Virus record (IMG/VR): IMGVR_UViG_3300042890_003113
Coordinates: 1 to 45,494 of that record
Origin: a virus
Direction: 5' to 3' (one strand)
Length of the DNA: 45,494 nt
A program made the position numbers and the translations under genes. Position 1 is the first letter of the stretch; each line of letters starts with the position of its first letter. This document shows positions 1,792 through 37,564 of the stretch, piece after piece. The notes below the pieces were generated by a model that saw only the letters and a list, made by a program, of their open reading frames with translations, made no database searches and was not told the DNA's origin.

Positions 1792-2482
1792 CATTTAAGG
1801 CTTGCTTATATCGATCTTGCCAAAGAGCGCATGCGGCCGAGTGAGCATCCTCAAGTGGATGTAACCCAGGATCGGTTACACTAAATCCATGTTTATAACT
1901 CCAATCTAAAAAAGTTAATCCTTCAAAGGTTTGCAAAGGATCTTTAGTAAGATCTTGTAAAGTTTTAATATAGTCCGGAGCATGCCAGGTTGTGTCCCAC
2001 ATTTCAGCATCCATATATGTTTGTATACTAGGAACATCGATGTGTTTTAAAAATTGTTGTGTAGAGTAAATGGTTTGTAGTGTTCTAAACTTGTCCCATA
2101 ATGTACTGTATCCAGGATACTTTCCGTAAAATTCTAAAATCTTTTCAGCATCTTCTGCCCCAACCAATGGCGCTAACTTTGACGGGACACAGGTTAATCC
2201 CAATGTAGTCCATGTTTCCTGCTGTGGAATATAAAAATCCCAACGAGCACCCCATGTCCAATTAATTACAGCCAGCACATTATCACTGGGATTATTTGAA
2301 AAATATGTTAAAATTTGACGACTAATATTTTCGTTACCACAGCCCGGCACTGCGGTAGTTTCATAATCAACACCTAATTTCCGTGCGGCCTGTCCAATCC
2401 AACTTTGTTGTCCATCATTATTATTGGCAAGTTCGCTGCCAAAGACAAAGCTATCTCCAAAGCCAACTATTTTTGTTTTCAT
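1787..2482 (-). CDS. SGNH hydrolase-like protein
   Basis: This 231-aa protein has the full SGNH layout: VGFGDSFVFGS at residues 6-16 (block I, nucleophile Ser), PGCGNENI (blocks II/III with Gly and Asn), and DPGLHPLEDAHSAAC near the C-terminus carrying candidate catalytic Asp/His residues. No signal peptide or membrane segment is visible. It overlaps the upstream radical SAM gene by 4 nt (ATGA), so the two are probably co-translated. The upstream radical SAM and downstream SOD/SGNH genes suggest a common modification module, but the substrate cannot be read from the sequence. Confidence 0.75.
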   Translation of the reverse strand: MKTKIVGFGDSFVFGSELANNNDGQQSWIGQAARKLGVDYETTAVPGCGNENISRQILTYFSNNPSDNVLAVINWTWGARWDFYIPQQETWTTLGLTCVPSKLAPLVGAEDAEKILEFYGKYPGYSTLWDKFRTLQTIYSTQQFLKHIDVPSIQTYMDAEMWDTTWHAPDYIKTLQDLTKDPLQTFEGLTFLDWSYKHGFSVTDPGLHPLEDAHSAACALWQDRYKQALNV

Positions 2483-3624
2483 GCCTGTGCCTTATATAAA
2501 GTTAAATGATTTTCCTGTCTAATTTGGTCCAACGTTTGATTGTAAGATTGGCTACGATCCCAAAGTATTGAATTAAATTTAGCAGATTTAATTTGATTAA
2601 TTAGACCTGTTAACATATTTCTTTGTTCATTATCTAAATCCAAACTCAAACAAGATTCTAAATAGTCCACAGCTTGCGGGCGTAGTTCTTCTGACAGATT
2701 ATCTGCGGCTAACAAATAAGGACGTTGACAAACAAAAAATTGGTGTCGACAACCAAGATCGCCATGTCGACCAACAGGTGTAATGCTGAGTTGTTGCATC
2801 CGACGACCAAACTCTAACAAGGGTTTTAGCCCAAATATTGTCAAATTAGATACAACAGAATTTATGTCTAGACTGTTAGCGTGTTGTGCCAACCAAGATA
2901 CATTGCGTTCAATAACTGGCCAGTCTGACCCGTGCCTGACAATTTCGGCTGCCGACCCTACTGCGTCAATACTTACTGTCCAATGTAAATTTGGTAACTG
3001 TTCTGTAATTTCATACCAGAACTCATCTTGAAAACTTGCATTTGATGTTATCAACACTGCAATATCTTTATGATCCTGTTTGATTGTTTTAATAAGATCT
3101 CGCACACCAGGAATTACGGTAGGCTCACCACCAGTGAACATAATTCTTTTTAGTGACCCTAGGTTACACATAATCCAATCTATATTTGAATCAGTTACTG
3201 ATAGAGTTTTACTAGCAGGCGGCGCTCCTAAAAACTTTTGCAATTCTGGGTAATGATTAATTTCCTGTGTTATGCCGTGACTGAATGTTGGGCTACAACT
3301 ACGACATTTAAAATTGCAAATATTAACAGATCTAAAATCTATGAAGTCAAGCTGTGTGTTGGTAAAAATTTGATTATCATAATCTTGATTACTATTAGTC
3401 CTTAAGCTGGTGCCGTATGCCTGTTCTTGTTTGACACACCCTCCGCACACCGCTGGGGTATTTCCATTAAGTAAATCTTGTTGTAATTCTATTAGTTTTG
3501 GATGTGTGGACCATTCATCAAGGGTCACTTGATATCTTGGAGTCTGACAACAAGCCGCAATGCCTGTACTATCAACATAAGCATGTCTAAACGGCAGTGG
3601 ACAATACCAGTCTGACATGGTCAT
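2479..3624 (-). CDS. Radical SAM protein with N-terminal twitch-like domain (paralogue 1 of 5)
   Basis: The N-terminal ~75 residues carry a cysteine pattern (WYCPLPF, ACCQT, CGGC) like auxiliary-cluster twitch/SPASM domains. The core follows, with CNFKCRSC for the SAM-bound 4Fe-4S cluster and FTGGEPT for SAM binding. Length is 381 aa. Radical SAM enzymes use the cluster to cleave S-adenosylmethionine and start radical chemistry, often on peptides or sugars; the substrate here is unknown. The ATG overlaps the IF-1 stop codon and the 3' end overlaps an SGNH hydrolase gene. Four further paralogues follow at 20700, 27400, 31498 and 34090. Family call is firm; function is not. Confidence 0.9.
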
Positions 3625-10288: not shown

Positions 10289-10649
10289 TCAGTTTGACAA
10301 TGTCAGCAAAAGTGTTTTCAACTTCCCACTCAACCCAATTTTGTATGCTTTCAAATGGCACAGTTTCATCCACCCATTCGTAAACATAGTCATTGTGCCC
10401 AGCAAAAAGATAATCTCTAAATGCTGTTTTGAGACGATGCTCCAGTTCACGTATTTGACGCTCGGGCCCGGACCAAACTCCGGCCCACTTTATAGCATGA
10501 CCCACATGGCCTTCATACCCATTTTGTCTAGAATCCAAATTGGTAGTGATACCAAAACAGGTACGAGAAATCACAGCGTCAGTGTCATCATCCACATAGC
10601 GATGACGCCAAAGGTAGAAATGATACGGGTCAGAGAGATTTGTATTCAT
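10278..10649 (-). CDS. GIY-YIG/T5orf172-like nuclease-related protein
   Basis: This 123-aa protein reads MNTNLSDPYHFYLWRHRYVD, then SRTCFGITTNLDSRQNGYEG and ERQIRELEHRLKTAF. The pattern FYLWRH...CFGIT...R...E..LK resembles the divergent GIY-YIG fold of T5orf172-type proteins, but the Y-I-G triad is degenerate (F-G-I), so activity is uncertain. ATG 10649 is preferred because the frame upstream lies inside the preceding gene, which it overlaps by 20 nt. Ends in a hairpin. Confidence 0.55.
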   Translation of the reverse strand: MNTNLSDPYHFYLWRHRYVDDDTDAVISRTCFGITTNLDSRQNGYEGHVGHAIKWAGVWSGPERQIRELEHRLKTAFRDYLFAGHNDYVYEWVDETVPFESIQNWVEWEVENTFADIVKLSVV

Positions 10650-11757
10650 TGTAGTTCTTGATTGTCGGCAATGGCAAAGTTCCACCGCGTTTCATGTAAT
10701 CTTTATGCCAGATTGGCAGCAGACAAGCATCAGACCACCCGCCAAACATTCTTTTGTATCGTGTTTTGCAATCTTGGTGGAATGCCTTAGGGGAACCATA
10801 ACGTTTCATGTGTTGATAAAATTCAAGCTCATGTTCTTTGGTAATTTCTATGTCCTGTTCACGGCACAGTGTGGCAAACCTACCAAATGTAATTAGATAG
10901 CCGCCATCCACACCTTTTTCACTGGCATAGTATTTGTTGTGCCAGGCCAGCACCCAATCCAAGTCTGCTTTGGCCACGTCAAAATTATCTGTGCCATGTC
11001 CGGCCAGTTTCAACAAGCTACTGATGTGGGTGATCATACCCGGCTTGGCTTTTTGCCCTCTTGCTTCGAGACCCGGTGCCGCAAACATGTTATGGGCCTG
11101 CAATGTATTTTGTATTTCGTTGGCCTGTAAATCTTCAGTAAGGGTGCTGTTGTAAAGACGCACACCATTGACCATACTGCGGTAGATGTAAAATAAATCT
11201 GGTTCTTTACGTCCTTTGTAGTTGATACAACGGAAACCAAGATTGCCCACTGCTTCGCCTACCAAGTCAGACCCTGGCACTCGAAGGTCGTCATCCACAA
11301 CTTTACATTGTATCAGTGTATCAGGAGAGATCAATCCAAAGTGCATCATTAGTGCAAAGGCAGTACCACTTTGTTGACCCTCCCAGGCACTGTATCGACC
11401 AGTTTCTTTGATGTAAATTACATTGAGTGGTTGCATGATCCTGGGATCAAATAACTCAATGATATTTTTACCAATGTGTGGAATTTCCAACAGGCGTTGA
11501 ATGTCAATGTTGATGTCAACCAGGCTGGCAGGCTGTAGTTCAAGCCGGCCAAAATGTTCTTGTGTGTACTGTTCACCTTGCAGTCGTGCTCGAAGATTTG
11601 CTATGGCCTCTTGTATGTCATCTTCGTTGGCAATGGCCATGGCACGAGATACCAGTGGATCATAGATGTTGCCAGTTGACACCATTGGTGTTTGAACTGC
11701 CTTGGGTGCTGGTGCAAACGGATTCGCCATTAGATTAGACACAATGGGTCGAGTCAT
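10630..11757 (-). CDS. ParB/sulfiredoxin-like phage protein
   Basis: This 375-aa protein has a segment LELFDPRIMQPLNVIYI-like (IIELFDPRIMQPLNVIYIKE) followed by RYSAWEGQQSGTAFALMM at about residues 98-140. This resembles the ParB/Srx N-terminal fold, where a conserved G-x-x-R/Q pocket binds nucleotide. The C-terminal half is helical with many aromatics. ParB-like nucleases in phages bind or cut DNA; activity here is not shown. It is monocistronic behind the promoter at 11789-11817. Confidence 0.6.
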   Translation of the reverse strand: MTRPIVSNLMANPFAPAPKAVQTPMVSTGNIYDPLVSRAMAIANEDDIQEAIANLRARLQGEQYTQEHFGRLELQPASLVDINIDIQRLLEIPHIGKNIIELFDPRIMQPLNVIYIKETGRYSAWEGQQSGTAFALMMHFGLISPDTLIQCKVVDDDLRVPGSDLVGEAVGNLGFRCINYKGRKEPDLFYIYRSMVNGVRLYNSTLTEDLQANEIQNTLQAHNMFAAPGLEARGQKAKPGMITHISSLLKLAGHGTDNFDVAKADLDWVLAWHNKYYASEKGVDGGYLITFGRFATLCREQDIEITKEHELEFYQHMKRYGSPKAFHQDCKTRYKRMFGGWSDACLLPIWHKDYMKRGGTLPLPTIKNYNEYKSL

Positions 11758-15243: not shown

Positions 15244-15498
15244 TCAGGCAAATTTCATTGTGAATGCCAAATAGTCCGATTCAGAATCAAAGTAAAATAC
15301 GTAGGTGCCTGGCATACGATCCGAACTGGTGCGTACCACTTGCCAGCGCCATTCTTCTGTGAGTTCGGTCTTGGCCCAGTCTATCACCGAATCAAGTGAT
15401 CCAAATGGTTTGGTTATTGAGATACTGTGCCCGAAACTGTCGGCGTCTCGAATTTCAAAACTAAAAGTCTTAGGCCGCTTGGTCAGCGTAGTTTTCAT
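15244..15498 (-). CDS. Small conserved-type phage protein
   Basis: This 84-aa protein begins MKTTLTKRPKTFSFEIRDAD and ends SDYLAFTMKFA. ATG 15498 has AAGGCGG 6 nt upstream; two more codons upstream would need a TTG start. It overlaps the GGCT-like gene by 29 nt and is the last gene of the heptose operon, before the next promoter. Beta-rich, unknown function. Confidence 0.62.
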   Translation of the reverse strand: MKTTLTKRPKTFSFEIRDADSFGHSISITKPFGSLDSVIDWAKTELTEEWRWQVVRTSSDRMPGTYVFYFDSESDYLAFTMKFA

Positions 15499-15889
15499 AT
15501 GCAACCGCCTTTAACACGTCGCTGGGTATATTCCAGTGTCGATAACTGTCAGCAATGTTGGCAACATAACTGCTGCCAGGTGATCCGGACCTGTTAGTTG
15601 GAGTCATTTCATAAAAGAAAAAATCCCTATCGCCTTGATACCAATCACGCTTGACATAGTAGGTTGGATAACCTTCGTACGCATCCAATGCGTATTCACA
15701 ATCTTCAGTGATTTCCCACAGCACACCTGGCACATAGCAACCGGCTTGGGGCACAATGGTGGCGTGGTTATAAAATTCCAATTTCCAATCTAGCAAATTG
15801 AATTGGCACAATGGAACTGCTGCCGGGCAACGCATCTTCATTGCGGTTGGGTGCATGTTGGCGCCATAGGCAAAGTACAGTGATTTCAT
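15470..15889 (-). CDS. Gamma-glutamylcyclotransferase-like (AIG2/GGCT fold) protein
   Basis: This 139-aa protein has the AIG2/GGCT signature: LYFAYGANMHPTAM at residues 4-17 (matching YGSNL), and ALDAYEGYPTYY around residues 68-79 with the catalytic-type Glu. The family breaks down gamma-glutamyl amines or peptides. It overlaps hldD by 4 nt, so it belongs to the sugar operon, though GGCT chemistry is not an obvious part of heptose synthesis. Phages and bacteria carry many such small proteins of unknown substrate. Confidence 0.82.
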   Translation of the reverse strand: MKSLYFAYGANMHPTAMKMRCPAAVPLCQFNLLDWKLEFYNHATIVPQAGCYVPGVLWEITEDCEYALDAYEGYPTYYVKRDWYQGDRDFFFYEMTPTNRSGSPGSSYVANIADSYRHWNIPSDVLKAVAYENYADQAA

Positions 15890-16653
15890 AGCGTACTCAC
15901 AGTGGTGTTGTATCGGGTCATGTCAGCACAGGTGTACTTTTGATAGGAATCTTTTAAAATTGCCGGCATAGGAACAGTTTCAATAGGAACTCCAAACTGT
16001 TCGGCCACGGCCATAAAACTTCGGGGCTGGCCTGTGCCCACATTCCATATACCGCTTTCTTTTACTGTTAAGAATTTCAAGTGTGTTTCGACAATTTTAC
16101 TCACAGGCACAAAGTCACGCAGGAATCGATCACTGCCTTCAAACACTTGTATTTTACCAGTTTCTTCTGCTTGACGTTTGAACTGTGCATATGGGCTGGC
16201 CTGTGTGCCTTTGTGTTCTTCACCTTCGGGTCCGTACGCATTAAAGTAACGAAATATCTGTGCTCTTGCACCCATTGGATGTCTCTGTATATAACGTTCG
16301 GTCAAGTACTTGCTCCAGGCATACGGAGTGCGTGGATCTAGTTCGGCATCTTCTCTGAATGTGCTGACCAATCCATACACACTGGCACTACTGGCATACT
16401 GAAAGTTCACGCCAAAAGTATGACATGCTTGATACAGTTGCTGAGTAAAGTCCACATTTTGTTGCATGACTTTTTCAATGTTTCGCTCAGTGGTTGAACT
16501 GATGGCGCCCATGTGGATCACCCAATCCTGTTCCATCACAGACGGCAGTATCTCGCCCCAGTCGTAAACAGAGACATGATGACCATGTGCCTCTAGTGCC
16601 CGAAACATGTGGCTGCCGATAAAGCCCTTATAACCTGTAAGTAGTATTTTCAT
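15886..16653 (-). CDS. hldD: ADP-glyceromanno-heptose 6-epimerase-like protein (HldD family)
   Basis: This 255-aa extended-SDR epimerase has the NAD(P) loop LLTGYKGFIGSH (residues 4-15), IHMGAISSTTE, SSASVYG, active-site YAWSK, and the HldD-type stretch RYFNAYGPEGEEHKG followed by RFLRDFVPVSKIVE and WNVGTGQPRSF. In bacteria HldD converts ADP-D-glycero-D-manno-heptose to the L-glycero form for LPS core. It lies with an HldE kinase and adenylyltransferase, which agrees. It is shorter than E. coli HldD (310 aa), mainly in the substrate-binding region. A different nucleotide-sugar substrate remains possible. Confidence 0.9.
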   Translation of the reverse strand: MKILLTGYKGFIGSHMFRALEAHGHHVSVYDWGEILPSVMEQDWVIHMGAISSTTERNIEKVMQQNVDFTQQLYQACHTFGVNFQYASSASVYGLVSTFREDAELDPRTPYAWSKYLTERYIQRHPMGARAQIFRYFNAYGPEGEEHKGTQASPYAQFKRQAEETGKIQVFEGSDRFLRDFVPVSKIVETHLKFLTVKESGIWNVGTGQPRSFMAVAEQFGVPIETVPMPAILKDSYQKYTCADMTRYNTTVSTL

Positions 16654-16655
16654 AG

Positions 16656-17303
16656 TTAGTGGTGGAAATTTTTAATTTTTCCATTTTGTTCATGATCCAT
16701 ATTCAATATATACCGATAGGTATTGTCAAATATATTTTTGTAAGTATCTGGATTGTCAAAATGTGGAGACACTGCTGTTGATATTGCTCCACGATCATTA
16801 TGGTTGGCAAACGCCAACATGAGAAAAGCCTGTGCGGCCTTGCCAGTGGCATAGCCAACACAATGAGTGTAGTAGTCTCGATCAAAATTGGTTGCCAGAC
16901 CTGACACCAAAAAAACCAATTTACTAGTGTTGGTCATTTTTTTCAATGCAGAAATGCTCAATAGATGTGGCAACACTGCATACCCGTCGATTGTTTTGTG
17001 CCATAGCCGAGGATTGCCACGGCTGTCTGATACAAAATCTCCGGGCTGTCCTGGAAATTCTTGCTCGGGCTTGGAGTTGTATATAAGAATATCTATGTGT
17101 TCCAATTCGGCTGTCAGTTGTTCAAATGCTGAGACTACATCTGCTACTACATCAAAGTTCACCCAGGTGTGTTGACTGTTGTTTTCTGCACTGGGGCGAT
17201 GACTCAGTACATACACAGTGTGTCCATCTTGTCGGGCACGATCGCAAAAATCTCTTCCAAACCGGCCTTCAGCACCGCCACCGCCCACAACACATATATT
17301 CAT
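16656..17303 (-). CDS. Short-chain dehydrogenase/reductase
   Basis: This 215-aa Rossmann protein begins MNICVVGGGGAEGRFGRDF (nucleotide-binding Gly-rich loop), has DILIYNSKPEQ in the NNAG-like position, SKLVFLVSG, and YTHCVGYATGKAAQ with the YxxxK active pair. Its operon position between hldD and the HldE kinase suggests oxidation, reduction or epimerisation of a sugar intermediate, but the substrate is unknown. It overlaps the kinase gene by 4 nt. Confidence 0.85.
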   Translation of the reverse strand: MNICVVGGGGAEGRFGRDFCDRARQDGHTVYVLSHRPSAENNSQHTWVNFDVVADVVSAFEQLTAELEHIDILIYNSKPEQEFPGQPGDFVSDSRGNPRLWHKTIDGYAVLPHLLSISALKKMTNTSKLVFLVSGLATNFDRDYYTHCVGYATGKAAQAFLMLAFANHNDRGAISTAVSPHFDNPDTYKNIFDNTYRYILNMDHEQNGKIKNFHH

Positions 17304-18052
17304 GCTATTTCCTTTGTTGTTGGGGCATAGTTGCCAATGTGTTGCACAGTAACAGCACTGGCTCGAATGGCAAAATTTATTGCCTGTGACATACTGCGGT
17401 CAACAAGATACTTGTAGGCCAGTGCAGCCAGAAAGGTGTCGCCTGCACCACACACATCCGCAACTTCCACACGCTTGGATGTGAAATGAATTTGGTTCCA
17501 TCTGGCACCTTGATCGCCTAGTGTCACAATTAAATCTGTACACGCACTAGTAATGCGATTGTATTCAAGTTGGTTGATTTTTACAATACACCCTTCTAGT
17601 CTAGCCAGGTCAGTTTTCTTTGTGTCAACAAAAATAGGACCTGCAAACTGTTTTCGTAATTGTTCAATGAGTTCATAGCTGACTGTGCCTTTGTTGTAGT
17701 CACTGATCACAATGGCATCATAATCTAGATCAGTGTTGACAGTGACAGGATGGCAATCTGCATCATCGTCAATGCGTACAATTTGTTGCTTGCTACGACT
17801 GTCGATCAATCGAGTCTTTTTTGATATTCTATCAAAAAGAAAATCCACAGCACAGCCCAGTGCTTCTAAATTATTCTTGACATTGCCAGCCATTCCGTCA
17901 CGTTGTTCTGTGTGGCCTGCCACAAACACCGGCACAGGAGCTTCGGGACTGATGCGATCCACAGTCCCAAATTGATACACGTCTCGGCAGTTATCCCCTA
18001 CGAGCAATATTTTGAATGGTGTTGGTTGTGGAGTAGTCACGGTATCTGTCAT
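17300..18052 (-). CDS. hldE: D-glycero-beta-D-manno-heptose-7-phosphate kinase-like protein (HldE domain I)
   Basis: PfkB-family kinase of 250 aa. KILLVGDNCRDVYQFGTVDR is the N-terminal strand, DRISPEAPVPVF the RfaE/HldE hallmark, GMAGNVKNNLEALG the substrate loop, and VCGAGDTFLAALA (about residues 205-217) the ATP/anion hole with catalytic Asp. ATG 18052 (MTDTVTTPQP) is preferred because the upstream frame lies inside the adenylyltransferase gene, which it already overlaps by 62 nt. Bacterial HldE fuses this kinase to the adenylyltransferase; here they are two genes with the adenylyltransferase first. Confidence 0.9.
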   Translation of the reverse strand: MTDTVTTPQPTPFKILLVGDNCRDVYQFGTVDRISPEAPVPVFVAGHTEQRDGMAGNVKNNLEALGCAVDFLFDRISKKTRLIDSRSKQQIVRIDDDADCHPVTVNTDLDYDAIVISDYNKGTVSYELIEQLRKQFAGPIFVDTKKTDLARLEGCIVKINQLEYNRITSACTDLIVTLGDQGARWNQIHFTSKRVEVADVCGAGDTFLAALAYKYLVDRSMSQAINFAIRASAVTVQHIGNYAPTTKEIA

Positions 18053-18395
18053 AAAAATGTATCTTCTTACAGTACTCTGCACCAATGATTGGCTGGTCTC
18101 TGTAGTCACTGCCCTTGACCATTACATCTGGATCAAAGTTTTTAATCAACTGTGTCAGTTCTTCATCGCTGTCAAATGTTTCCACACGGTCAACTGACTT
18201 CAGTGCAAACATCATGGTACAACGATCCAGTTCGTTGTGTATGGGCCTATTGGCACCTTTGAGTTCTCGTATGCGACGATCTGTGTCCAGTAGTACTAAC
18301 ACGTATGAGTTAGGGTATGACCTTGCAGTCTGGAGCAATCGTATATGTCCCACGTGCAATATATCAAATGTACCATTCACAACAACCCGGGTCAT
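17991..18395 (-). CDS. hldE: Heptose-1-phosphate adenylyltransferase-like protein (HldE domain II)
   Basis: This 134-aa nucleotidyltransferase has NGTFDILHVGHIRLL (residues 7-21) with the HxGH motif at 14-17, DRRIRELKGANRPIHNELDR, and near the end RDYSTTNTIQNI in place of the RSTS-type signature. It would join AMP (or CMP) to a sugar phosphate; with the HldE kinase and HldD beside it, ADP-heptose formation is the best guess. It overlaps the HAD gene by 4 nt upstream. Confidence 0.9.
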   Translation of the reverse strand: MTRVVVNGTFDILHVGHIRLLQTARSYPNSYVLVLLDTDRRIRELKGANRPIHNELDRCTMMFALKSVDRVETFDSDEELTQLIKNFDPDVMVKGSDYRDQPIIGAEYCKKIHFYDRYRDYSTTNTIQNIARRG

Positions 18396-18874
18396 AGTTT
18401 ATCTATTTCCGTTAATGTTTTGTCAAGATCTCCACGATGCTGAATAGCAACACCGCCGGCATGACGCCATTCTTCGCAGTTGCTGGTACGGTCATCAATC
18501 AGCACATCACCTAACTTACAATGAACATGCTTGTCATGACTGTAGGGTCCAAACATAACAGGAATATCCGGATAGTGTGTAGTAGCCCAATTTACCTTGT
18601 CATAAAATGCCCACTTGACATCGTTGCCTTTGGGCACAGCAGTCAGGAACATCAAGTTCCAGTTGTTGTTCTTACACTTTTCTCGACAGGCCACAACAAT
18701 GCTGTCGGCCTCGGTGGTTTTGTTAAGGTCTCTGTACAGCCTGGGATTGTCACGCAGTCTGGTCCATTCTTCATAGGCCCAACGTTCATCTTCAGATTTT
18801 TTGCGAAGCACACTGACAGCATAACCTTTGAAGTCTGCAATCACATCATCCATGTCTAAATACACTGTTCTCAT
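18392..18874 (-). CDS. HAD-family 5'(3')-nucleotidase-like phosphatase
   Basis: This 160-aa HAD protein begins MRTVYLDMDDVIADFKGYAV (DxD nucleophile and general acid at residues 6 and 8), has LMFLTAVP for motif II and GDVLIDDRTSNCEEWRHAGG for the metal-binding motif, as in NT5C-type deoxyribonucleotidases. In this operon it could replace GmhB, which removes the C7 phosphate of heptose bisphosphate before adenylylation; that is an inference. Nucleotide dephosphorylation is the alternative. Confidence 0.85.
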   Translation of the reverse strand: MRTVYLDMDDVIADFKGYAVSVLRKKSEDERWAYEEWTRLRDNPRLYRDLNKTTEADSIVVACREKCKNNNWNLMFLTAVPKGNDVKWAFYDKVNWATTHYPDIPVMFGPYSHDKHVHCKLGDVLIDDRTSNCEEWRHAGGVAIQHRGDLDKTLTEIDKL

Positions 18875-19230
18875 TGTTGACTGTCACCCTTGCCTACACG
18901 ATAATTATCTTCCACTGAATCAGGCGTTGAAACTTCTATAATGGTGCCGGCTTCCATGCATACCAGTTGATGCGGCACCAATGGCAGATTATGCCATGTG
19001 TCTCCGGGTGCTAGTGTTTCTAAATATTCTTCTGCTGTGGCAGTGTCAATAAATCTAACTTGGAAATGCCCACTGAGCACATACCACGATTCATCTTTTT
19101 CTGCGTGAAAGTGCATGCTGAATTTGGCACCAGTGCGGAAGTGCATCAGCTTGCCACAGTAGCGATCGTTGGTAGCCCAGATCTCCTCAGACCCCCAGCC
19201 TTTTTCCACTCGTCCTGTTAATCTTGTCAT
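18871..19230 (-). CDS. Cupin-fold sugar enzyme-like protein
   Basis: This 119-aa cupin contains KLMHFRTGAKFSMHFHAEKD, then ESWYVLSG and DTWHNLPLVPHQLVCMEAG, giving the metal-binding His/Glu set (HFH, E, H) of the double-stranded beta-helix. It resembles mannose-6-phosphate isomerase C-terminal cupins. In this cassette it may isomerise or bind a sugar phosphate. Overlaps the HAD gene by 4 nt. Confidence 0.85.
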   Translation of the reverse strand: MTRLTGRVEKGWGSEEIWATNDRYCGKLMHFRTGAKFSMHFHAEKDESWYVLSGHFQVRFIDTATAEEYLETLAPGDTWHNLPLVPHQLVCMEAGTIIEVSTPDSVEDNYRVGKGDSQQ

Positions 19231-19478
19231 TCTGTATGTAGTTTAATTAACCAGTCACGCTGTATTATTTCATCACAGCGTTGCCAGTCCGGCTCATAGT
19301 ATATTCTATGATCTTGGATTTTAAAGTGATTGCAAAAACTCTGACCGTAACGTTGATTTTTTAAGCCGTCAAAGGTGTATAGCTTTTTCCAATCAGCATA
19401 AGCGTCGGCAGCCACTGGCAAACTGACTGCTTTGGGAGTCTGTTGTGTAAGCAGTTCACGGATCATTGAATCAAACAT
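19227..19478 (-). CDS. Hypothetical first gene of the heptose operon
   Basis: This 83-aa protein begins MFDSMIRELLTQQTPKAVSL and ends RCDEIIQRDWLIKLHTE. ATG 19478 lies 27 nt after the promoter -10; the longer frame would need a TTG overlapping the -10 itself. Contains RYGQSFCNHFKIQDHRIYYE, aromatic-rich. No family is recognised. Confidence 0.6.
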   Translation of the reverse strand: MFDSMIRELLTQQTPKAVSLPVAADAYADWKKLYTFDGLKNQRYGQSFCNHFKIQDHRIYYEPDWQRCDEIIQRDWLIKLHTE

Positions 19479-19504
19479 TGACACTATCGTAGTTAAGGTC
19501 ACCA

Positions 19505-19533
19505 ATTATAACATATATGTTATTGTGTGTCAA
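19505..19533 (-). promoter_or_regulatory. Sigma-70 promoter for the heptose operon
   Basis: Minus strand: TTGACA (19528-19533), 17 bp, TATAAT (19505-19510). The TGA stop of the upstream gene lies inside the -35 (19530-19532). A perfect 16-bp palindrome overlaps the spacer and -10. Confidence 0.87.
19508..19523. promoter_or_regulatory. Perfect 16-bp palindrome (candidate operator)
   Basis: ATAACATATATGTTAT is its own reverse complement and covers the -10 and part of the spacer of the promoter at 19505-19533. A dimeric repressor bound here would block RNA polymerase. It could also be chance in AT-rich DNA. Confidence 0.4.
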
Positions 19534-20699: not shown

Positions 20700-21809
20700 T
20701 CATGCGAATCTTTCAGTTAGCCATTTCCAATACTGCCCAAACAACTGGTTAGATGTTTGTGCAGGATCAATGTGTGTTCTTCGAAAATATTCTGTCAAGT
20801 AATTATACTGCTCAAACAATTTTATGTCAACCAATATGTCAGAAGGTTTTAAAATATCTTGTACCAAATCTGGCAATACTGTGGAATCAATTTGCTGTTT
20901 GAATTGGGCCGGAATCAACCGAGCATCCAAGCAATCAGGATTGTTAAGTGCATGACATTGTATTATGTGATGCTTGCGTTTGGCCCAACTGAAAAAATCG
21001 GGTAAATCAAATATATTCAACACACTGACTACACTTAGGAATCGGTACGACACTTGATATTTTTGAATCAACTCCAAGTTTTCTAAAAATTTATGTTGGT
21101 CAAACCCTGCTCTTGGCACATGGTTAAACTCTGGTGTGGCATCCAAACTTATGTCAAAATGCAGTCGATCTGATGGTACATGTTCCAATAACCATATTAG
21201 AAATTTGTTGTTAGGAGGATTGAGATTGGTATTGATGCGTAATTGTCTAATTCTATCGCTGTTAAATTCTACCAACTTTTGCAATTGTTTGATTTGCATC
21301 AATGGTTCGCCACCTAACAATTTTACAGCTACTGTATTGGCTGGTTGTTGTTGGATGTATTGGTGTATTTGATCTATCCAATACTGATGATCCACAGTGT
21401 TTAATTTGATTTCAAAATTTTGGTTGGTTGACTGACTGACTTTTGGAAACAATCCGTCTTTGATAATGCTGTTTTGCCACTCACTACTGAATTTTGGACT
21501 GCAATAACTGCACATGTGATTGCAGGTATTATCAAAGAACAATTCAATCTGATCGCCTTCATTATCAAGTTTTTTTAATTGCCGATAAGATTGATGTCCT
21601 TGTGCTTCGTGTTTCCAACACACATTGCAAGATGGTATTTGATTGCCTTGCTCTAGTTGATTTTTTTCTTTATTCCAGTGTGCAGTAAGTTGATCAAAAT
21701 CCTTGTATTGTGTCAATGGGTCACTATAGGCCTTGCAACATGATGCAGTAGTTCCTAGATGTAAGAAAAAAAGTTTTTGGCGACCTTTAAGGTCACATGA
21801 TTTAGTCAT
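20700..21809 (-). CDS. Radical SAM protein with N-terminal twitch-like domain (paralogue 2 of 5)
   Basis: This 369-aa protein has the twitch-like Cys set near the N-terminus (TTASCCKAY, CNVCWKHE), then CNHMCSYC for the 4Fe-4S cluster and KLLGGEPLMQI. DISLDATPEF marks a later barrel strand. It is the most divergent of the five at the N-terminus. Clustered with small phage genes and a tRNA, it has no visible peptide substrate partner; substrate unknown. Confidence 0.9.
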   Translation of the reverse strand: MTKSCDLKGRQKLFFLHLGTTASCCKAYSDPLTQYKDFDQLTAHWNKEKNQLEQGNQIPSCNVCWKHEAQGHQSYRQLKKLDNEGDQIELFFDNTCNHMCSYCSPKFSSEWQNSIIKDGLFPKVSQSTNQNFEIKLNTVDHQYWIDQIHQYIQQQPANTVAVKLLGGEPLMQIKQLQKLVEFNSDRIRQLRINTNLNPPNNKFLIWLLEHVPSDRLHFDISLDATPEFNHVPRAGFDQHKFLENLELIQKYQVSYRFLSVVSVLNIFDLPDFFSWAKRKHHIIQCHALNNPDCLDARLIPAQFKQQIDSTVLPDLVQDILKPSDILVDIKLFEQYNYLTEYFRRTHIDPAQTSNQLFGQYWKWLTERFA

Positions 21810-22300: not shown

Positions 22301-22600
22301 TTACATTCGCATTGATTCCAGTGTGATCATCTTGCCCAGTTCTTTGTCAAAATCCACGTCGTCTGATACCACATACAGTTTGTAGCTGGTACGATCCTGT
22401 TTATTATCGTAGTTGCGGAATGATACAATCTTGCCGCCAATGGCTTTTCGCACAGTGATGTTGAGCCCTTCGTCTGAGTCAATATCACCGCCACCGCTAC
22501 GTATAGCAAGTCTACCGGTCATTGGCTTTGAATTGCTGTACTCAAGCAGTTCTCGACCTTCCAGATTCCACTGCCAAATCAGTCGCTTTAACCACTTCAT
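22301..22600 (-). CDS. Small conserved-type phage protein
   Basis: This 99-aa protein begins MKWLKRLIWQWNLEGRELLE and contains LAIRSGGGDIDSDEGLNITV and TSYKLYVVSDDVDFDKEL. AAGGAAG lies upstream of ATG 22600, which overlaps the upstream cupin gene's stop. Basic Trp-rich N-terminal helix, then a beta domain. Function unknown. Confidence 0.7.
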   Translation of the reverse strand: MKWLKRLIWQWNLEGRELLEYSNSKPMTGRLAIRSGGGDIDSDEGLNITVRKAIGGKIVSFRNYDNKQDRTSYKLYVVSDDVDFDKELGKMITLESMRM

Positions 22601-23049
22601 ACTGACTTCCTTTGTTTTAGGTATTCTTCCCACTGTATCCATTGATTACGAACCAGAAATCCCCATTCACGTTGTTTGATGCCGGGCATGAACAAGGTCC
22701 AACAGGTCACACTAGGATCAAGTTCTATTCTATGATATGTATTGGCACTGGCCCAACGGAAACTTCCAGGTCCACACCAGCGCACAAGTTCTGTAATTTT
22801 ATTGCCCTTGTCATCAAATCGCGGAGTCCATTCCCAGTAGCCACCTTTTAGTACAAGTGTAGCATAGGGCCAGGGATGATCGTGTACATCATCCGGATCA
22901 GATTTCAAGAACTTGTGCAGAAATATGTTGAACGGAAAACGTTTGCGCTCTCGAAGAAACACATAGTAGCGTTCCAGATAAGGTTCATTTTCAACACGAT
23001 CCATCACAATGCGTTTGCGTCCCAAACGATCTAAAAGTTTTAAAAGCAT
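22597..23049 (-). CDS. Cupin-like phage protein
   Basis: This 150-aa protein has a cupin-like core: DPDDVHDHPWPYATLVLKGG with the HDH metal-type motif, YWEWTPRF, WCGPGSFRW and ANTYHRIEL. A basic N-terminal helix (LLKLLDRLGRKRIVMDRV) precedes it. The C-terminal RNQWIQWEEYLKQR is helical. Cupins bind metals or small ligands; a sugar or nucleotide ligand is unproven. Behind the promoter at 23071-23099. Confidence 0.7.
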   Translation of the reverse strand: MLLKLLDRLGRKRIVMDRVENEPYLERYYVFLRERKRFPFNIFLHKFLKSDPDDVHDHPWPYATLVLKGGYWEWTPRFDDKGNKITELVRWCGPGSFRWASANTYHRIELDPSVTCWTLFMPGIKQREWGFLVRNQWIQWEEYLKQRKSV

Positions 23050-27399: not shown

Positions 27400-28626
27400 T
27401 CACAAGTACACCCAGTGAGGTTCAAGTATGGTCCACCACTCGGGAAAAGTCTTACTAAAACTTTGATCCCGCAATTGATCTAGTTTTGTGGTAGCACGGC
27501 AAAACTTGGGCCACTCAACGTCGCAACCGGGAATGGTCTTTGATAGGAAACTTTTGATCTTTTGATCTTTTATACTATTGATTAACAGAGTCTTAACCGG
27601 GACAGGCAGGTGCCTAATATCATATTCAGGTGTGGTCACAATGTTTATGTTCACCGCAATGCCAAGGATTCGGTTAATGCTTTCCACAATTTGATCCACA
27701 TAAAATACATTGAGTGGGGTTATGGTCAATGAAATTCTAACAGTAACATTGCTATGTGGTCGGAACAATTCCACAAATCTTTTTGTATTTGCAATAGTCG
27801 ACTCAAAATCACCTTTGTGCCTGATGTATTCAAATTGCTCCGATTGCATGCTATCTATGCTGATGTTAAATCCCACCTGCTTGTAGTGTGTCAGTATTTT
27901 AACGTATTGCTCGTTGAGAATTGACGCATTGGTATGGAGATTCAAGGCCACATTCTTTGCCACGTCAGTGGTGACACCATGCTCTAGTACATCAAACATG
28001 GCCGGAACCAAGAAGGGCTCGCCACCGTAGATGTCGATGTATTCAAAATTTCCAATCCATTCTTTTAATGTGGGCCAAAATTCTTCATTGTTGCGACCAA
28101 AACTGTTGCGTATGGTTTCAAATGTCCGAGTGTATTCATTAAAAGTCAACGTGGTAGCCTGCCCAGTTTGATCTTCACTGTACCAACTGCTACTGCCAAG
28201 ATCCGATTTTTCTAATTCATGACCATCACTGTACCAACTGCTACTGGTCATGGGGTTACACATTCTGCAGGCAAAGTTACAGGTGTTGCCGGGTTTGATC
28301 ACCAACACACGAGGTTGTGTTTTTATTGCTTCCAAGTGACCAAACTTTCGGTTGTATTCCATTCTTGCCGATGTCCTACCAACGTCTTCTAAATCCCAAC
28401 ACGTCTGGCAACTGGCATGACGGATGCCGTGGTCCAGTGCCGTGGCAATCAATTTGCGGGTGTAACTTTTGAAGGCTGTTTTTAAAGGATGACTGTAAAC
28501 ACGTATAACTTCGTGGGAGTTATCTTTCCAACTTTCCTTGTTGAGATTACAACAACAATAATCTGCGTTGTTTTGCAACGCCATACCCATGTGAGTCATT
28601 ACGCAATAAGTGTTTGATTTTTCCAT
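27400..28626 (-). CDS. Radical SAM protein with N-terminal twitch-like domain (paralogue 3 of 5)
   Basis: This 408-aa protein has a twitch-like N-terminus with NADYCCCNLNKES and ASCQTCWDLED, then NTCNFACRMCNP (CxxxCxxC cluster site) and IDIYGGEPFLVP, with FNISIDSM in the barrel. It closely resembles the paralogue at 34090-35364 across the N-terminus (HASCQxCWD, GNTCNxxCRxCNP), so those two are recent duplicates. A TTAAATAC motif is 3 nt before ATG. Substrate unknown. Confidence 0.9.
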   Translation of the reverse strand: MEKSNTYCVMTHMGMALQNNADYCCCNLNKESWKDNSHEVIRVYSHPLKTAFKSYTRKLIATALDHGIRHASCQTCWDLEDVGRTSARMEYNRKFGHLEAIKTQPRVLVIKPGNTCNFACRMCNPMTSSSWYSDGHELEKSDLGSSSWYSEDQTGQATTLTFNEYTRTFETIRNSFGRNNEEFWPTLKEWIGNFEYIDIYGGEPFLVPAMFDVLEHGVTTDVAKNVALNLHTNASILNEQYVKILTHYKQVGFNISIDSMQSEQFEYIRHKGDFESTIANTKRFVELFRPHSNVTVRISLTITPLNVFYVDQIVESINRILGIAVNINIVTTPEYDIRHLPVPVKTLLINSIKDQKIKSFLSKTIPGCDVEWPKFCRATTKLDQLRDQSFSKTFPEWWTILEPHWVYL

Positions 28627-31085: not shown

Positions 31086-31508
31086 TTATTGATAAATCCA
31101 ACCTAAATTTAGTGTATTGTGCATCCATGTAAACACAGGCACAGAAAACTCCAATTGATAAACACCGTTCCACCCCAAGTAACCTTGCCCAGTCAATGGA
31201 GATGCTTTATTAGGGTAGTGTGGGGGATAATCGGGATAGTATATTCCTGCCCATATAAACTTCGGATCCGTTATTCCAAAGAAACCGATTTCTTTAACAA
31301 TCACCGCAGTAGAAATATCGTTGTCATCTTTTTTAAAGTGTTCAACTTTTAAACAACACTGGCCTGTTTTTGCAACAAAATCAAAATCAAAATCAGTTGT
31401 TTCTGTTAACTGTTGGATTCTTCCCCGGCCATCTACATCTACCTCAACCCAGGGCTCACCCACAGGTTCAAGTGTCACACGCATTGTTACCGGGTACTCA
31501 GTAGCCAT
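31086..31508 (-). CDS. Beta-rich protein coupled to radical SAM gene 4
   Basis: This 140-aa protein overlaps the upstream radical SAM gene by 11 nt. It begins [20 protein letters not shown] and contains CCLKVEHFKKDD, KFIWAGIYYPDYPPHYPNKA and LTGQGYLGWNGVYQLEFSVP, ending NLGWIYQ. It is beta-rich with many Trp/Tyr and two adjacent Cys. The strict pairing suggests it may be a partner or substrate of the enzyme, but this is inference from position. Confidence 0.7.
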   Translation of the reverse strand: MATEYPVTMRVTLEPVGEPWVEVDVDGRGRIQQLTETTDFDFDFVAKTGQCCLKVEHFKKDDNDISTAVIVKEIGFFGITDPKFIWAGIYYPDYPPHYPNKASPLTGQGYLGWNGVYQLEFSVPVFTWMHNTLNLGWIYQ

Positions 31509-32814
31509 GCAGATCCAATATATCAGTTAATTCTGGGTACAATGATCTAGCATCGTAACCGTATAGATTGTCCCAACGTCGGCACCAGGCAACCATGTCC
31601 TTTAAATGCTGTTCACTATTGGGCAACTGATCCTGTGTCAAAATGTTTAAGCATTGATCAATCTGACTTAAAATTGTGCGCGGCAATTGGTTGATGTCGC
31701 TTTCGTTATAGTCCACAGTATAGTCGTTGGTTAAGTTGTATTCGTGTATTAAGTTTTTATAATTGTCAATGTACAGATGCCGCACAGCCAATGGCAATAT
31801 CATTGGATTTAAAAAAATTGGATTTGTTACATTTAAATTTTTTACATTTATTTTATTGTCAAGGCAGTAACGCAACAAGGTATGATAAGAGCCAATGGTC
31901 AATGTACTGATAGCCGGTCTGGCTGTCACAGTTATATTTGATCTGTTGCAATGTGCAAGATATTGTTGTATATTTTTCAGTACCAACTGAGTATCAGTGC
32001 CCTGTCTCTGGTACGAGTTATGTTCGGTAATAGTTTCAATGCTTACTTCAATTCCCACACGGTTAAATTTCTTTAACTTGTTGATCAAACTTTCATTGAA
32101 TATGGTTCCGTTTGATACAAAACTAAAGTTTAAATCCGTGCGGCCATGTAGAATCATATGGTCAACAAACTCTTCAAATCTTGGTGTTAATAATGTCTCG
32201 CCGCCCATGAAATGAACATTATTGAGATCTTTTATATTGACCAGTTCGTTGAGCACACGAGTCCATACTGCTTTGTCACGAGTCCAGTCTGTTCCTACAT
32301 ATTGCTGTGCATTTGCATTTCCCCATTTAACTTCTTGCGCGGCAATAGTGCTACTGGCTTGAGGATGGCACATCTTACAAGCCAGGTTGCAATAGTTTCC
32401 CAAGTCAATGTGTAAGTCTATGGGCATTCCATCATAATCACCGTTGTTATTTTTACTAGATTCAAATTTATCGTAGCCAGGACTTTGCTCGTAACTGTTG
32501 GAGAAATTTGTTTTGGTAAAAATAACGCTCTTTTGATTGCATTTATGTCTGCGACTGGTGCCACTGATTCCTTGCTGATAGTAACAACGACTACAAAAAC
32601 TGACTGGTGAATCACTAAACATTGCCAGTCGAGCTTGCCGCATAGGTTCACTGTTAAACCATTCAGCAATGGTCATTTGAGAGACGTTATAAGTTTTGCC
32701 TAAATTGTCCGGGTACAGTTTGTGTGATTCTTGGCAACAAAAACCTAGACTACCATCCCAGTAGATCTGTAGTTCATACCAGGGACTAGTGCAAAAAATA
32801 TTTTTATTAGGCAC
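31498..32814 (-). CDS. Radical SAM protein with N-terminal twitch-like domain (paralogue 4 of 5)
   Basis: This 438-aa protein starts [20 protein letters not shown] from GTG 32814, which overlaps the end of clpP; a longer frame opens only at TTG 32850 inside clpP. Twitch-like Cys ([23 protein letters not shown]) precede CNLACKMC and [11 protein letters not shown], where Thr replaces Pro of GGEP. It is the longest paralogue, with an insertion around residues 95-140. Downstream overlap with a beta-rich 140-aa gene. Substrate unknown. Confidence 0.88.
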
Positions 32815-33430
32815 GTTTTTCAATAATTTTATCAGCAAGTCCAAAATCAACTGCTTGCTGTGCGCTTAAGAATGTATCAAACTTCATAGTTTCATACAGT
32901 TCTTCATAGGTCTTGTTGGCGGTGTTGTGCTTGACATACAGTTCGGTTAGACGTTTATTTATCCGTACGCTTTCTTCAAACGCACGTTTGCTATCTTCAA
33001 ACTGCAAGTCCTGCACATGTACAGATCCACGTGTGCCTGGGGTGCCGGAACTCACACGATGAATCATTGTACGTGCTTCTGGAAGTACCATGCGTTTGCC
33101 AACAGCGCCGGCCTGTGCCAACATTGATCCCATGCTGGCGGCCTGGCCCAATACAATGGTCTGCACATCGCATTTGATAAACTGCATGGTATCATAAATG
33201 GCCAGGCCTGCTGTAACAGCGCCACCAGGTGAGTTGATATAGAACGAAATATCTTTGTCAGGGTTTTCACTTTCCAAGAACAGCATCTGCGCCACAATCA
33301 AACTGGCTGAATGTTCGCTGACTTCTGTGTCCAACATGATCACACGGTCACGAAGCAAGCGGCTGTAGATATCGTAACTACGCTCGCCTTTGGCAGTTTG
33401 TTCTAGAACAATCGGTACTAAATTAGGCAT
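32807..33430 (-). CDS. clpP: ClpP-like serine protease
   Basis: This 207-aa S14-family protein aligns along its whole length: [50 protein letters not shown] with nucleophile Ser99, and [11 protein letters not shown] with His124. An insertion of about 12 residues lies before the third catalytic position. There [14 protein letters not shown] has Thr where E. coli ClpP has the catalytic Asp; Asp185 is nearby. ClpP forms a barrel protease with AAA+ unfoldases; the phage one may pair with host ClpX/ClpA or the second copy at 36989. Its promoter overlaps the divergent oxygenase start. Confidence 0.92.
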
Positions 33431-33497: not shown

Positions 33498-34151
33498 GAT
33501 ATTAAGTTTGAAATTTTTCCAGAAGACTATGCCTATTCCCGGGTTCAGACAACTTTTCCGTGGAGCCGAACAGAGTTAATAGCAGACTTTGAACAGGAGG
33601 ATTGGAAACCATACGGAGCCGAAACTGCTGTTAAACACGACGCTTGGACTGGCAAACGGTTTAAAGTGCATCGTCCCCGAAGCTCTAAGTTGCAACAAAT
33701 TTCTCAATTCTTCAGGCAGGATTCTGTAAAAGATTACGTCATTGAATGCCTGTATCGAGACAAACCTATCTTACAAATAAACTGGCAAATGTATCCTTGG
33801 CGCATGAGCACCAATACTGTGTTACATGCAGAATTTACAAAAGATTTGCCAGGCTTTGAAAACGGTATTCACTGCGACATGCGACGACTAGTAGGAACTG
33901 GTATGATATATCTGGCCGAGGGTGACGATCCAGCCTCAGCCAGTTGCTTTTATGATCATCCAGATCGTCACAACCCTCGTCGTGTCACCACCGGCTACGG
34001 CGCAGGGTGGGTACACAGCAACGATTGGAATACCTGGCACGATGGTTGGAATCGCACTGACAAAACACGCTATAGTATCTTGTTGGCTCTTACTTTGAAA
34101 CTGGAGAATCAACCACAAGCAACTGATCAAGCGGTGCAAACCACGGTGTAA
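33492..34151 (+). CDS. 2-oxoglutarate/Fe(II) oxygenase-like protein
   Basis: This 219-aa protein has a candidate HxD facial pair (GIHCDMRRLVGTGMIYLAEG), followed by GWVHSNDWNTWHDGWNRTDK then RYSILLALT, giving a distal His and 2OG-binding Arg. This is the 2OG-Fe(II) dioxygenase order; these are common in T4-like phages. An N-terminal aromatic segment precedes the core. The 3' 62 nt overlap the convergent radical SAM gene on the other strand. Substrate unknown; alternatives are other jelly-roll fold enzymes. Confidence 0.62.
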   Translation: MQDIKFEIFPEDYAYSRVQTTFPWSRTELIADFEQEDWKPYGAETAVKHDAWTGKRFKVHRPRSSKLQQISQFFRQDSVKDYVIECLYRDKPILQINWQMYPWRMSTNTVLHAEFTKDLPGFENGIHCDMRRLVGTGMIYLAEGDDPASASCFYDHPDRHNPRRVTTGYGAGWVHSNDWNTWHDGWNRTDKTRYSILLALTLKLENQPQATDQAVQTTV

Positions 34152-35364
34152 TTAGTTCTGCAAATTCAGGCACGGCTGTTTCAAAAGTTTGTCCACGGCT
34201 ACGATCAAGGCCGCGAGTGTAACGATGAAATTCCCGGAAGTGATGCTGTTGTCCTTCCATTGGTGTATTCAAAAAGTTCAACACAATTTCACAATGGTCT
34301 TTCCAGTAGCGTTGATGCCACGGCCCAATATCATCCCCTGTCACATACTTTGACAATTTATCAGTAATTGCGATTTTAACAGCATCGGGCAAACTTTTCA
34401 CACACAGCTGATATGGTAAGTGCAACATGTTAAAGTTAGTGCCCAGCCCTTTCTTTGCAAAGAAATCAAATATCTCATCCAGATAATACACATTCAAACT
34501 GTTGACAGTGATACACACGCTAAATTGAAAGTTTTTGTTTGTGCGTTGTGCCTGTAGGAATCGTTCAAGATTGGCGGAAACCAGATCCCAGGTACTAGAA
34601 TAGCGAACATATCCACACCTATCTTCAATGTCATCAATGCTGAGATCAAAATAAACTCGTTTAAATTGCTTTAACAAATTTTCTAACTCATCATTCCAGA
34701 CAGTGCCATTGGTGCTAAAATGTAGGTCTATGTTTTTTGCAGTGCCTTGATCCACAGCAGCCTGTAGCACGTCAAAGTTCTTTTTGATCAGCATGGGCTC
34801 TGCACCGTAGTAGTCAATGTACACTGCATTAGGCACCCACTTGCTCATGGTGTTCCAGAGGTCTTGATTGTTGTCGCTGTAACTGGCAGGAATTCTGCGC
34901 CAGCGTTTGAGATACTCTGGGTAAGAAACGCCTTCTGCGGGCTGTGCTGCCAATTCCCAATCTTCACGATACCATTGACTGGACACTTCTGGGTTACAGG
35001 TTCTGCATTTCATGTTGCAGGTGTTGCCCATTTTTAGGTCCAGTATTTGCGGTTGATCATCACGGTCAGTCACTGGATGATTCATGCTGTTGTGCCACTG
35101 TCTGCGTGACTTTTTGCCGGCGTGTTCATCGTCCCAGCAGGCCTGACAACTGGCATGCTCTTGATTGTTTTCCAACGATTCTTGTATTTCTCTGCGTGTA
35201 GGGCTTGTCCATGCTTGTTCTAACGTGTGGGTGTCTAGATATATCTGCTCACCCTGTGCATCTTCCAGGTATTTTCTACTGTGACAGCACAGATATGTTC
35301 TTCCAGAATTGTGCAGGCCCAGGCCTTTGTCGGCTAAAATACAGTATAAATTACTTTGTTTCAT
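34090..35364 (-). CDS. Radical SAM protein with N-terminal twitch-like domain (paralogue 5 of 5)
   Basis: This 424-aa protein has twitch-like Cys (YLCCHSR, ASCQACWDDEHAG), CNMKCRTC, and DYYGAEPMLIK, where the usual GGEP is GAEP. YFDLSIDDI follows. Closest to paralogue 3 (27400). The 3' end overlaps the oxygenase-like gene on the opposite strand by 62 nt, so their mRNAs are antisense over that stretch. Substrate unknown; the GAEP change may weaken SAM binding. Confidence 0.88.
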   Translation of the reverse strand: MKQSNLYCILADKGLGLHNSGRTYLCCHSRKYLEDAQGEQIYLDTHTLEQAWTSPTRREIQESLENNQEHASCQACWDDEHAGKKSRRQWHNSMNHPVTDRDDQPQILDLKMGNTCNMKCRTCNPEVSSQWYREDWELAAQPAEGVSYPEYLKRWRRIPASYSDNNQDLWNTMSKWVPNAVYIDYYGAEPMLIKKNFDVLQAAVDQGTAKNIDLHFSTNGTVWNDELENLLKQFKRVYFDLSIDDIEDRCGYVRYSSTWDLVSANLERFLQAQRTNKNFQFSVCITVNSLNVYYLDEIFDFFAKKGLGTNFNMLHLPYQLCVKSLPDAVKIAITDKLSKYVTGDDIGPWHQRYWKDHCEIVLNFLNTPMEGQQHHFREFHRYTRGLDRSRGQTFETAVPEFAELITPWFAPLDQLLVVDSPVSK

Positions 35365-36992: not shown

Positions 36993-37564
36993 CGATTCAG
37001 TACGGAGATGTTGTCGCAGATGCCAAGCTTCAAGGCTTCTTCTGCACTGAGATACACATCGTGTGCCGGCAACAAGGTTCGTTTAATTTCTTCTTCTGAT
37101 AATCCTGTACACTGCACATAGTGTGCAACCATGCGCTTTTGTGTAAGATCAAACTCTTTCATTGTGGCCATCAACTCATGATGCTTGCCATCATTGCCCC
37201 AGGCATACTGATGACTCATGATACTAGTGTTGGGCGTTAGTGTTCTGCGTCCGGGTGATCCTGCCAAAAAGATCAACAATCCAGCACTGGCAATCTGACC
37301 CAGACCCACAGTCTTAATGAATATGTTGGAACTACGCATCACGTCAATTAGGGCAAAGGCCGCACTCATGTCCCCGCCCTCTGAACAGATCATCAACAAC
37401 AGTTCTTTGCGTTTTCTTTTTGTAACAAAGTTCTCGTGCAGAATCCATTCGATCGCAGGCTTTATACTTTCATGGTCTACTTCTCCCATGAAAACATACA
37501 TACCATTATCTGCCAACGCTTGTGTGTGGTCTTTTACGGTGTCAAAATCTTGCTGTGTGGCCAT
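36989..37564 (-). CDS. Second ClpP-like serine protease
   Basis: This 191-aa divergent ClpP-family protein has LLLMICSEGGDMSAAFALID (oxyanion-type loop), VGLGQIASAGLLIFLAGSPG with nucleophile Ser93, NTSIMSHQYAWG with His118, and LPAHDVYLSAEEALKLGI. The usual catalytic Asp site has Leu; the nearby Asp in AHD is kept. Its stop overlaps that of the plus-strand 528-aa gene. Two ClpP-type proteins could form a mixed ring or one could be a virion maturation protease. Confidence 0.88.
   Translation of the reverse strand: MATQQDFDTVKDHTQALADNGMYVFMGEVDHESIKPAIEWILHENFVTKRKRKELLLMICSEGGDMSAAFALIDVMRSSNIFIKTVGLGQIASAGLLIFLAGSPGRRTLTPNTSIMSHQYAWGNDGKHHELMATMKEFDLTQKRMVAHYVQCTGLSEEEIKRTLLPAHDVYLSAEEALKLGICDNISVLNR

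Follow-up and report, generated by a model that had tools for sequence, protein, structure and literature searches.

A minus-strand operon in a 45,494-nucleotide stretch of viral DNA (IMG/VR virus record IMGVR_UViG_3300042890_003113; hereafter the window, which covers positions 325-45818 of an 81,565-base IMG/VR viral contig) encodes relatives of the enzymes of ADP-heptose synthesis together with a small cupin. Judging from sequence, this cupin is probably a sedoheptulose-7-phosphate isomerase, with which the phage would make ADP-heptose from host sedoheptulose-7-phosphate. Moreover, we consider it quite likely that cupins of this kind (T4-GC 307, phrog_7851) form an unrecognised family of sedoheptulose-7-phosphate isomerases that has repeatedly replaced GmhA in archaea, bacteria and phages, so that the phages would carry a full set of heptose-nucleotide enzymes even when their hosts have none. 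We know of no enzyme other than GmhA, a drug target, for the first committed step of heptose synthesis, and no earlier proposal of a cupin as a heptose isomerase or GmhA replacement was found in the openly licensed literature. The heptose pathway and its occurrence in phages are already known; what is new is the proposed exchange of the isomerase, which would give phages a full pathway free of GmhA.

Inspection of the open reading frames (ORFs) in the window revealed a string of eight coupled genes running from 19505 down to 15470, which encode in turn a 92-amino-acid (aa) protein, the cupin, a HAD protein, a nucleotidyltransferase, a kinase, an SDR protein, an HldD-like epimerase and a GGCT-like protein (Table 1). 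The six reading frames from the cupin to the HldD-like epimerase are open and free of internal stops. Most junctions are 4-nucleotide (nt) overlaps, with a 2-nt gap between the SDR and HldD-like genes and a 62-nt overlap between the transferase and kinase genes. The length of this last overlap follows from placing the kinase start at ATG 18052, which is conserved in homologues; the mechanical ORF begins at GTG 18109. These frames, together with profile matches, bear out the operon set out in a preliminary description of this DNA, in which HldD-like, HldE kinase and HldE adenylyltransferase proteins are encoded by separate, overlapping genes alongside an SDR, a HAD phosphatase and a cupin. The splitting of HldE, to which that description had pointed, proved to be ordinary, since many archaeal operons and the cyanophages likewise have distinct kinase and transferase genes. 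A near-identity search of positions 1-25000 of the window against phage records gave no match, and the operon's gene order recurs in a relative of 346,856 bases (L014, G003).

By profile, the kinase, transferase and HldD-like protein are closest to heptose enzymes, as is the kinase by fold. The kinase scores 129 bits against TIGR02198 (equivalog cut-off 345), the transferase 107 bits against TIGR02199 (cut-off 181.5), above its 51.5 bits for glycerol-3-phosphate cytidylyltransferase, and the HldD-like epimerase 194 bits against TIGR02197 (2.7e-57; cut-off 274.6). When family profiles were searched against the PDB, E. coli HldD (1eq2) came first for the HldD family (6e-77), with the first enzyme of another kind at 3e-30, and B. 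cenocepacia HldA (4e84) came first for the kinase family (1e-32). A Foldseek search of the PDB with an AlphaFold2 (AF2) model of the kinase (pLDDT 93.7) returned HldA for all of the top seven matches, with E-values from 1e-21 to 1e-19, the next match lying at 1e-13. These results support an ADP-heptose-like pathway, as first suggested in the preliminary description. A promiscuity of the STTR5 type was considered for the transferase and set aside: tyrosine replaces arginine at the fifth residue of the motif. In 69 of 86 relatives of the transferase, there is instead an arginine five residues ahead of STT.

The cupin itself matches MannoseP_isomer (PF01050, mannose-6-phosphate isomerase) at 25.3 bits, just above the cut-off of 23.6. 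Its residues K27, H40, H42, K45, E47, H87, E99 and D108 are invariant in 51 of 51 phage, archaeal and bacterial relatives, and make up a His-His-Glu-His metal site (H40, H42, E47, H87) and a catalytic Lys/Glu/Asp set (K27, K45, E99, D108). All eight have counterparts among the sugar-contacting residues of the Thermofilum D-lyxose isomerase TsLI (K62, H75, H77, K86, E88, H143, E156 and D163; PMC8378251), the pairs E99/E156 and D108/D163 being matched by approximate spacing only. Mutation of the residues corresponding to TsLI K86, E156 and D163 abolishes lyxose isomerase activity (PMC8378251). L-ribose isomerase aligns to the cupin with CxK (CDK) and HFHxxKxE motifs, and the lysine is missing in the alignment from quercetinase and oxalate-decarboxylase-type cupins. 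An AF2 model of the cupin, based on an alignment without cyanophage rows, reached a pLDDT of 94.

Relatives of the kinase were drawn from 80 viral contigs and 10 phage records, and the 81 viral loci considered here include the window. Of these loci, 77 have the transferase near the kinase, 70 the cupin and 57 HldD, and none has a cell-type GmhA there; in 6 of the 11 loci without a cupin, the kinase lies close to the end of the available sequence. The joint retention of the kinase, transferase and cupin genes at roughly 70 viral loci shows that the gene set is not a product of chance. The absence of GmhA, remarked upon from the window alone, extends to all 36 viral records searched for it, among them six complete cyanophage genomes. 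Cyanophages with the same set include P-SSM2, S-CAM1, S-CAM3, S-SSM7, Sf-FS3, S-SM2 and P-TIM68. A cyanophage protein annotated as 'phosphoheptose isomerase' was examined as a candidate GmhA and rejected, as it carries HAD motifs (DIDGTI), and the second cyanophage 'nucleotidyltransferase' is in fact the cupin, which elsewhere is labelled cysteine dioxygenase. Sullivan et al. (2010) reported that T4-GC 304, 305, 307 and 308 co-occur and guessed at a functional link (PMC3037559); homologues of all four (transferase, kinase, cupin and HldD) are present together in the window. The same study could not exclude that the lipopolysaccharide (LPS) clusters of cyanophages are functionless passenger or 'stuffer' genes (PMC3037559), an idea that the open frames, the conserved coupling and the active-site residues that are invariant across diverse phages render highly improbable.

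In Woesearchaeota and related genomes, an operon of the form CUP-HldD-KIN-GmhB-NT (cupin, CUP; kinase, KIN; nucleotidyltransferase, NT) was found. We surveyed 145 archaeal genomes (from the order of the Woesearchaeota operon genomes) and 287 bacterial genomes (from the phylum of G043), using thresholds of at least 200 bits for the kinase, 100 bits for the cupin and 150 bits for GmhA. Six loci from GTDB metagenome bins (L092, L093, L109, L110, L117 and L148), which appear to lie on misbinned phage contigs bearing the module, were left out of the cellular evidence. Among the 57 genomes with a kinase, 16 had the cupin only, 35 GmhA only, 2 both and 4 neither (Fisher p = 1.05e-8, which is indicative only, because the surveyed genomes share ancestry and are for the most part fragmented). 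In the two genomes with both, the cupin lies on a different contig from the kinase, and at the 58 kinase loci the tally was 17 with the cupin, 35 with GmhA, 6 with neither and none with both. The gene order CUP-HldD-KIN-GmhB-NT (G031, G038, G151) has its equivalent in GmhA-HldD-KIN-GmhB-NT (G090), and the kinase is fused to the cupin in some genomes (G144, G148, G174, G364, G386, G416) and to GmhA in others (G070, G117, G121, G161, G322). A tree of the kinases contains close pairs that differ in their isomerase, and about 10 changes between cupin and GmhA labels, at least five of which are forced by supported branches. Since 15 of the 16 cupin-only genomes, including G364 (a single 1.24-Mb contig of a genome of about 1.2 Mb), yield only very weak fragments or long-frame SIS proteins with the GmhA profile, incomplete genomes are not the explanation for this pattern.

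A number of observations weigh against the proposed isomerase or the wider pathway. Foldseek results for the cupin are unspecific, with many cupins matching equally and isomerases not separated from the rest; relatives of the cupin are also found apart from heptose genes, so the family may include other isomerases; and in the cupin-type genome G038 a separate operon contains a divergent GmhA-like gene. Some early GmhA-like SIS matches in the cupin-type genomes G035, G038 and G042 likewise lie in other operons. Given also how many functions cupins have, these points would suit a scheme in which ADP-heptose is made from heptose 7-phosphate supplied by host GmhA, with the cupin working at a later stage, perhaps as a binding protein or a sugar epimerase. 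This seems unlikely to us in view of the mutual exclusion of cupin and GmhA at the same locus, the shared gene order, the fusion of the kinase to either protein, the repeated switches between them and the aldose-ketose isomerase residues of the cupin. Reliance on host GmhA is also hard to square with the presence of the same module in phages of cyanobacteria, whose LPS is reported to be without heptose (PMC4390846). Further points against the pathway are that the kinase, transferase and HldD-like protein all score under the NCBIfam equivalog cut-offs (unsurprising for phage proteins that have diverged), that HldA exceeds the kinase in length by about 65 aa, that HldD is not near the kinase in 24 of the 81 viral loci, and that 45 of the 81 have no recognised phosphatase nearby. 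The low scores and the missing HldD, taken with the PF01050 match and a published type II mannose-6-phosphate isomerase from a cyanophage (PMC9602691), could instead indicate another activated sugar, the cupin converting fructose 6-phosphate to mannose 6-phosphate as a phosphomannose isomerase and the remaining enzymes making an activated hexose or modified sugar. We regard this as improbable: HldD, found in the majority of the viral loci, acts on C6, which is not a stereocentre in a hexose, and kinases from the two types of operon, with cupin or with GmhA, are intermingled in the tree, so that the substrate is probably unchanged.

On the favoured interpretation, in which the cupin is the isomerase, it would convert host sedoheptulose-7-phosphate to heptose 7-phosphate in place of GmhA. 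By homology, the short HldA/HldE-I-like kinase would then form the 1,7-bisphosphate, the HldE-II-like transferase would generate ADP-heptose, and the HldD-like enzyme would epimerise C6''. Between the kinase and transferase steps, the NT5C-like HAD may remove the 7-phosphate in place of GmhB, and the SDR may modify the product. The preliminary description had the pathway fed either by host sedoheptulose-7-phosphate or by a host-isomerised product; we keep the former as substrate and see no need for the latter, since the cupin most likely replaces GmhA and the phage thus need not depend on a host isomerase. GmhB proper is not found at the window locus, where the NT5C-like HAD occupies its slot. 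Of the 81 viral loci, 17 have a GmhB-like protein in this slot, 11 the NT5C-like HAD of the window and 8 another small HAD, and the GmhB-like occupants in related phages support the earlier suggestion of the HAD as a possible GmhB stand-in. The SDR (4 of 91 loci) is confined to the closest relatives of the window. The GGCT-like gene (6 of 91 loci) is doubtful as a pathway member, and the gene for the 92-aa protein was found in 5 of 91.

As for the acceptor, no recognisable glycosyltransferase or heptosyltransferase was found in the window, where a GT9-like family profile likewise gave no match; two candidates, at 10630-11757 and 37656-38723, were rejected for want of a Pfam family or of a match to glycosyltransferases. 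Elsewhere, the heptosyltransferase family PF01075 matches a protein of TPR-GT9 type (L190:9874-11034, minus strand) whose gene lies amid virion structural genes in the 347-kb relative, and gives a weak match to cyanophage T4-GC 302, annotated as hypothetical and located directly upstream of a carbamoyltransferase-heptose module. These GT9-like proteins hint at heptose transfer to a glycan or protein, and a GT9-like enzyme encoded elsewhere in the genome might, as a guess, move heptose to a protein of the virion or a glycan on the host surface. The preliminary description named host LPS and phage components as possible targets, and either may apply. Because cyanobacterial LPS is reported to lack heptose, cyanophages are unlikely to use the module simply to step up LPS core synthesis in the host, and its presence in these phages points to a use other than copying host LPS.

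Table 1. Genes of the operon and other features discussed in the text; positions are those of the window unless preceded by a contig handle (L).
Feature	Position	Strand	Basis
Cupin, 119 aa, proposed sedoheptulose-7-phosphate isomerase in place of GmhA	18871..19230	-	MannoseP_isomer, conserved residues, GmhA exclusivity
HAD phosphatase, NT5C-like, 160 aa, proposed heptose 1,7-bisphosphate 7-phosphatase	18392..18874	-	PF06941 (36.9 bits), DMDD motif, GmhB slot
Heptose-1-phosphate adenylyltransferase, HldE domain II-like, 134 aa	17991..18395	-	TIGR02199, phrog_7878, NGTFDILHVGH and STT motifs
Heptose-7-phosphate kinase, short HldE domain I/HldA-like, 250 aa	17300..18052	-	TIGR02198, Foldseek HldA matches
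SDR-family protein, 215 aa	16656..17303	-	weak adh_short, YATGK motif
HldD-like ADP-heptose 6-epimerase, 255 aa	15886..16653	-	TIGR02197; SSASVYG, YxxxK and HKGxxAS kept
Gamma-glutamyl cyclotransferase (GGCT)-like protein	15470..15889	-	PF06094 (35.5 bits); 4-nt overlap with HldD
92-aa protein, TTG start uncertain	19227..19505	-	no match in family searches; 4-nt overlap with cupin
T4-GC 302, GT9 heptosyltransferase-like	L003:2690-3802 (PSSM2_307), L002:2831-3970, L189:1300-2286		
GroEL, small heat-shock protein and ClpX set (by eye)	L193:17260-18903, L193:16703-17161, L193 end/L194 start	- (first two)	

We also noted several genes outside the operon. The window encodes five radical SAM proteins, all on the minus strand (2479-3624, 20700-21809, 27400-28626, 31498-32850 and 34090-35364), the second of which is close to the twitch-domain family NF033640, and two distinct head-maturation-protease/ClpP-like proteins within 5 kb (32807-33430 and 36989-37564). 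An Fe/Mn superoxide dismutase (1236-1778), a phrog_4786 'cysteine dioxygenase' protein (22597-23049) and a PstS-like phosphate-binding protein (42093-43094) are also present, and the 81.5-kb contig appears by eye to encode a protein-quality-control set.

If the cupin is indeed a second, unrelated isomerase, this would change how heptose pathways are recognised in genomes, correct long-standing misannotations of cyanophage cupin and HAD proteins, and open to testing the reasons for heptose synthesis in phages and archaea. Compared with the GmhA-type ADP-heptose pathway, the phage system has a homologous kinase (cut to 250 aa), adenylyltransferase and epimerase in a tight operon, with HAD proteins in the phosphatase slot as well, but has a cupin where the SIS-fold GmhA would be and, in the window, an NT5C-like HAD instead of GmhB and an additional SDR. 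With the cupin-fold D-lyxose, L-ribose and phosphomannose isomerases it shares the metal triad and the catalytic lysine, glutamate and aspartate, although the phage cupin is smaller, none of the solved structures is closely related to it, and its substrate would be a C7 ketose phosphate. The T4-like cyanophage 'LPS' genes T4-GC 302-308 (P-SSM2, S-SSM7, S-SM2, S-CAM1/3) have the same NT-kinase-HAD-cupin-HldD set, with gene overlaps and no GmhA; their proteins are about 35-47% identical to those of the window, the HAD is different, and several cyanophages have an adjacent carbamoyltransferase and GT9-like gene. Finally, Tang et al. (Science 2024; described in PMC11461863 and PMC11573728) reported working enzymes of NDP-heptose synthesis from viruses and archaea. 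As far as commentaries on that work tell, those systems likewise carry out NDP-heptose synthesis, with no mention of a cupin isomerase and with a viral phosphatase said to be absent, whereas HAD candidates, GmhB-like in 17 loci, are present here and the window transferase is without the STTR5 arginine.

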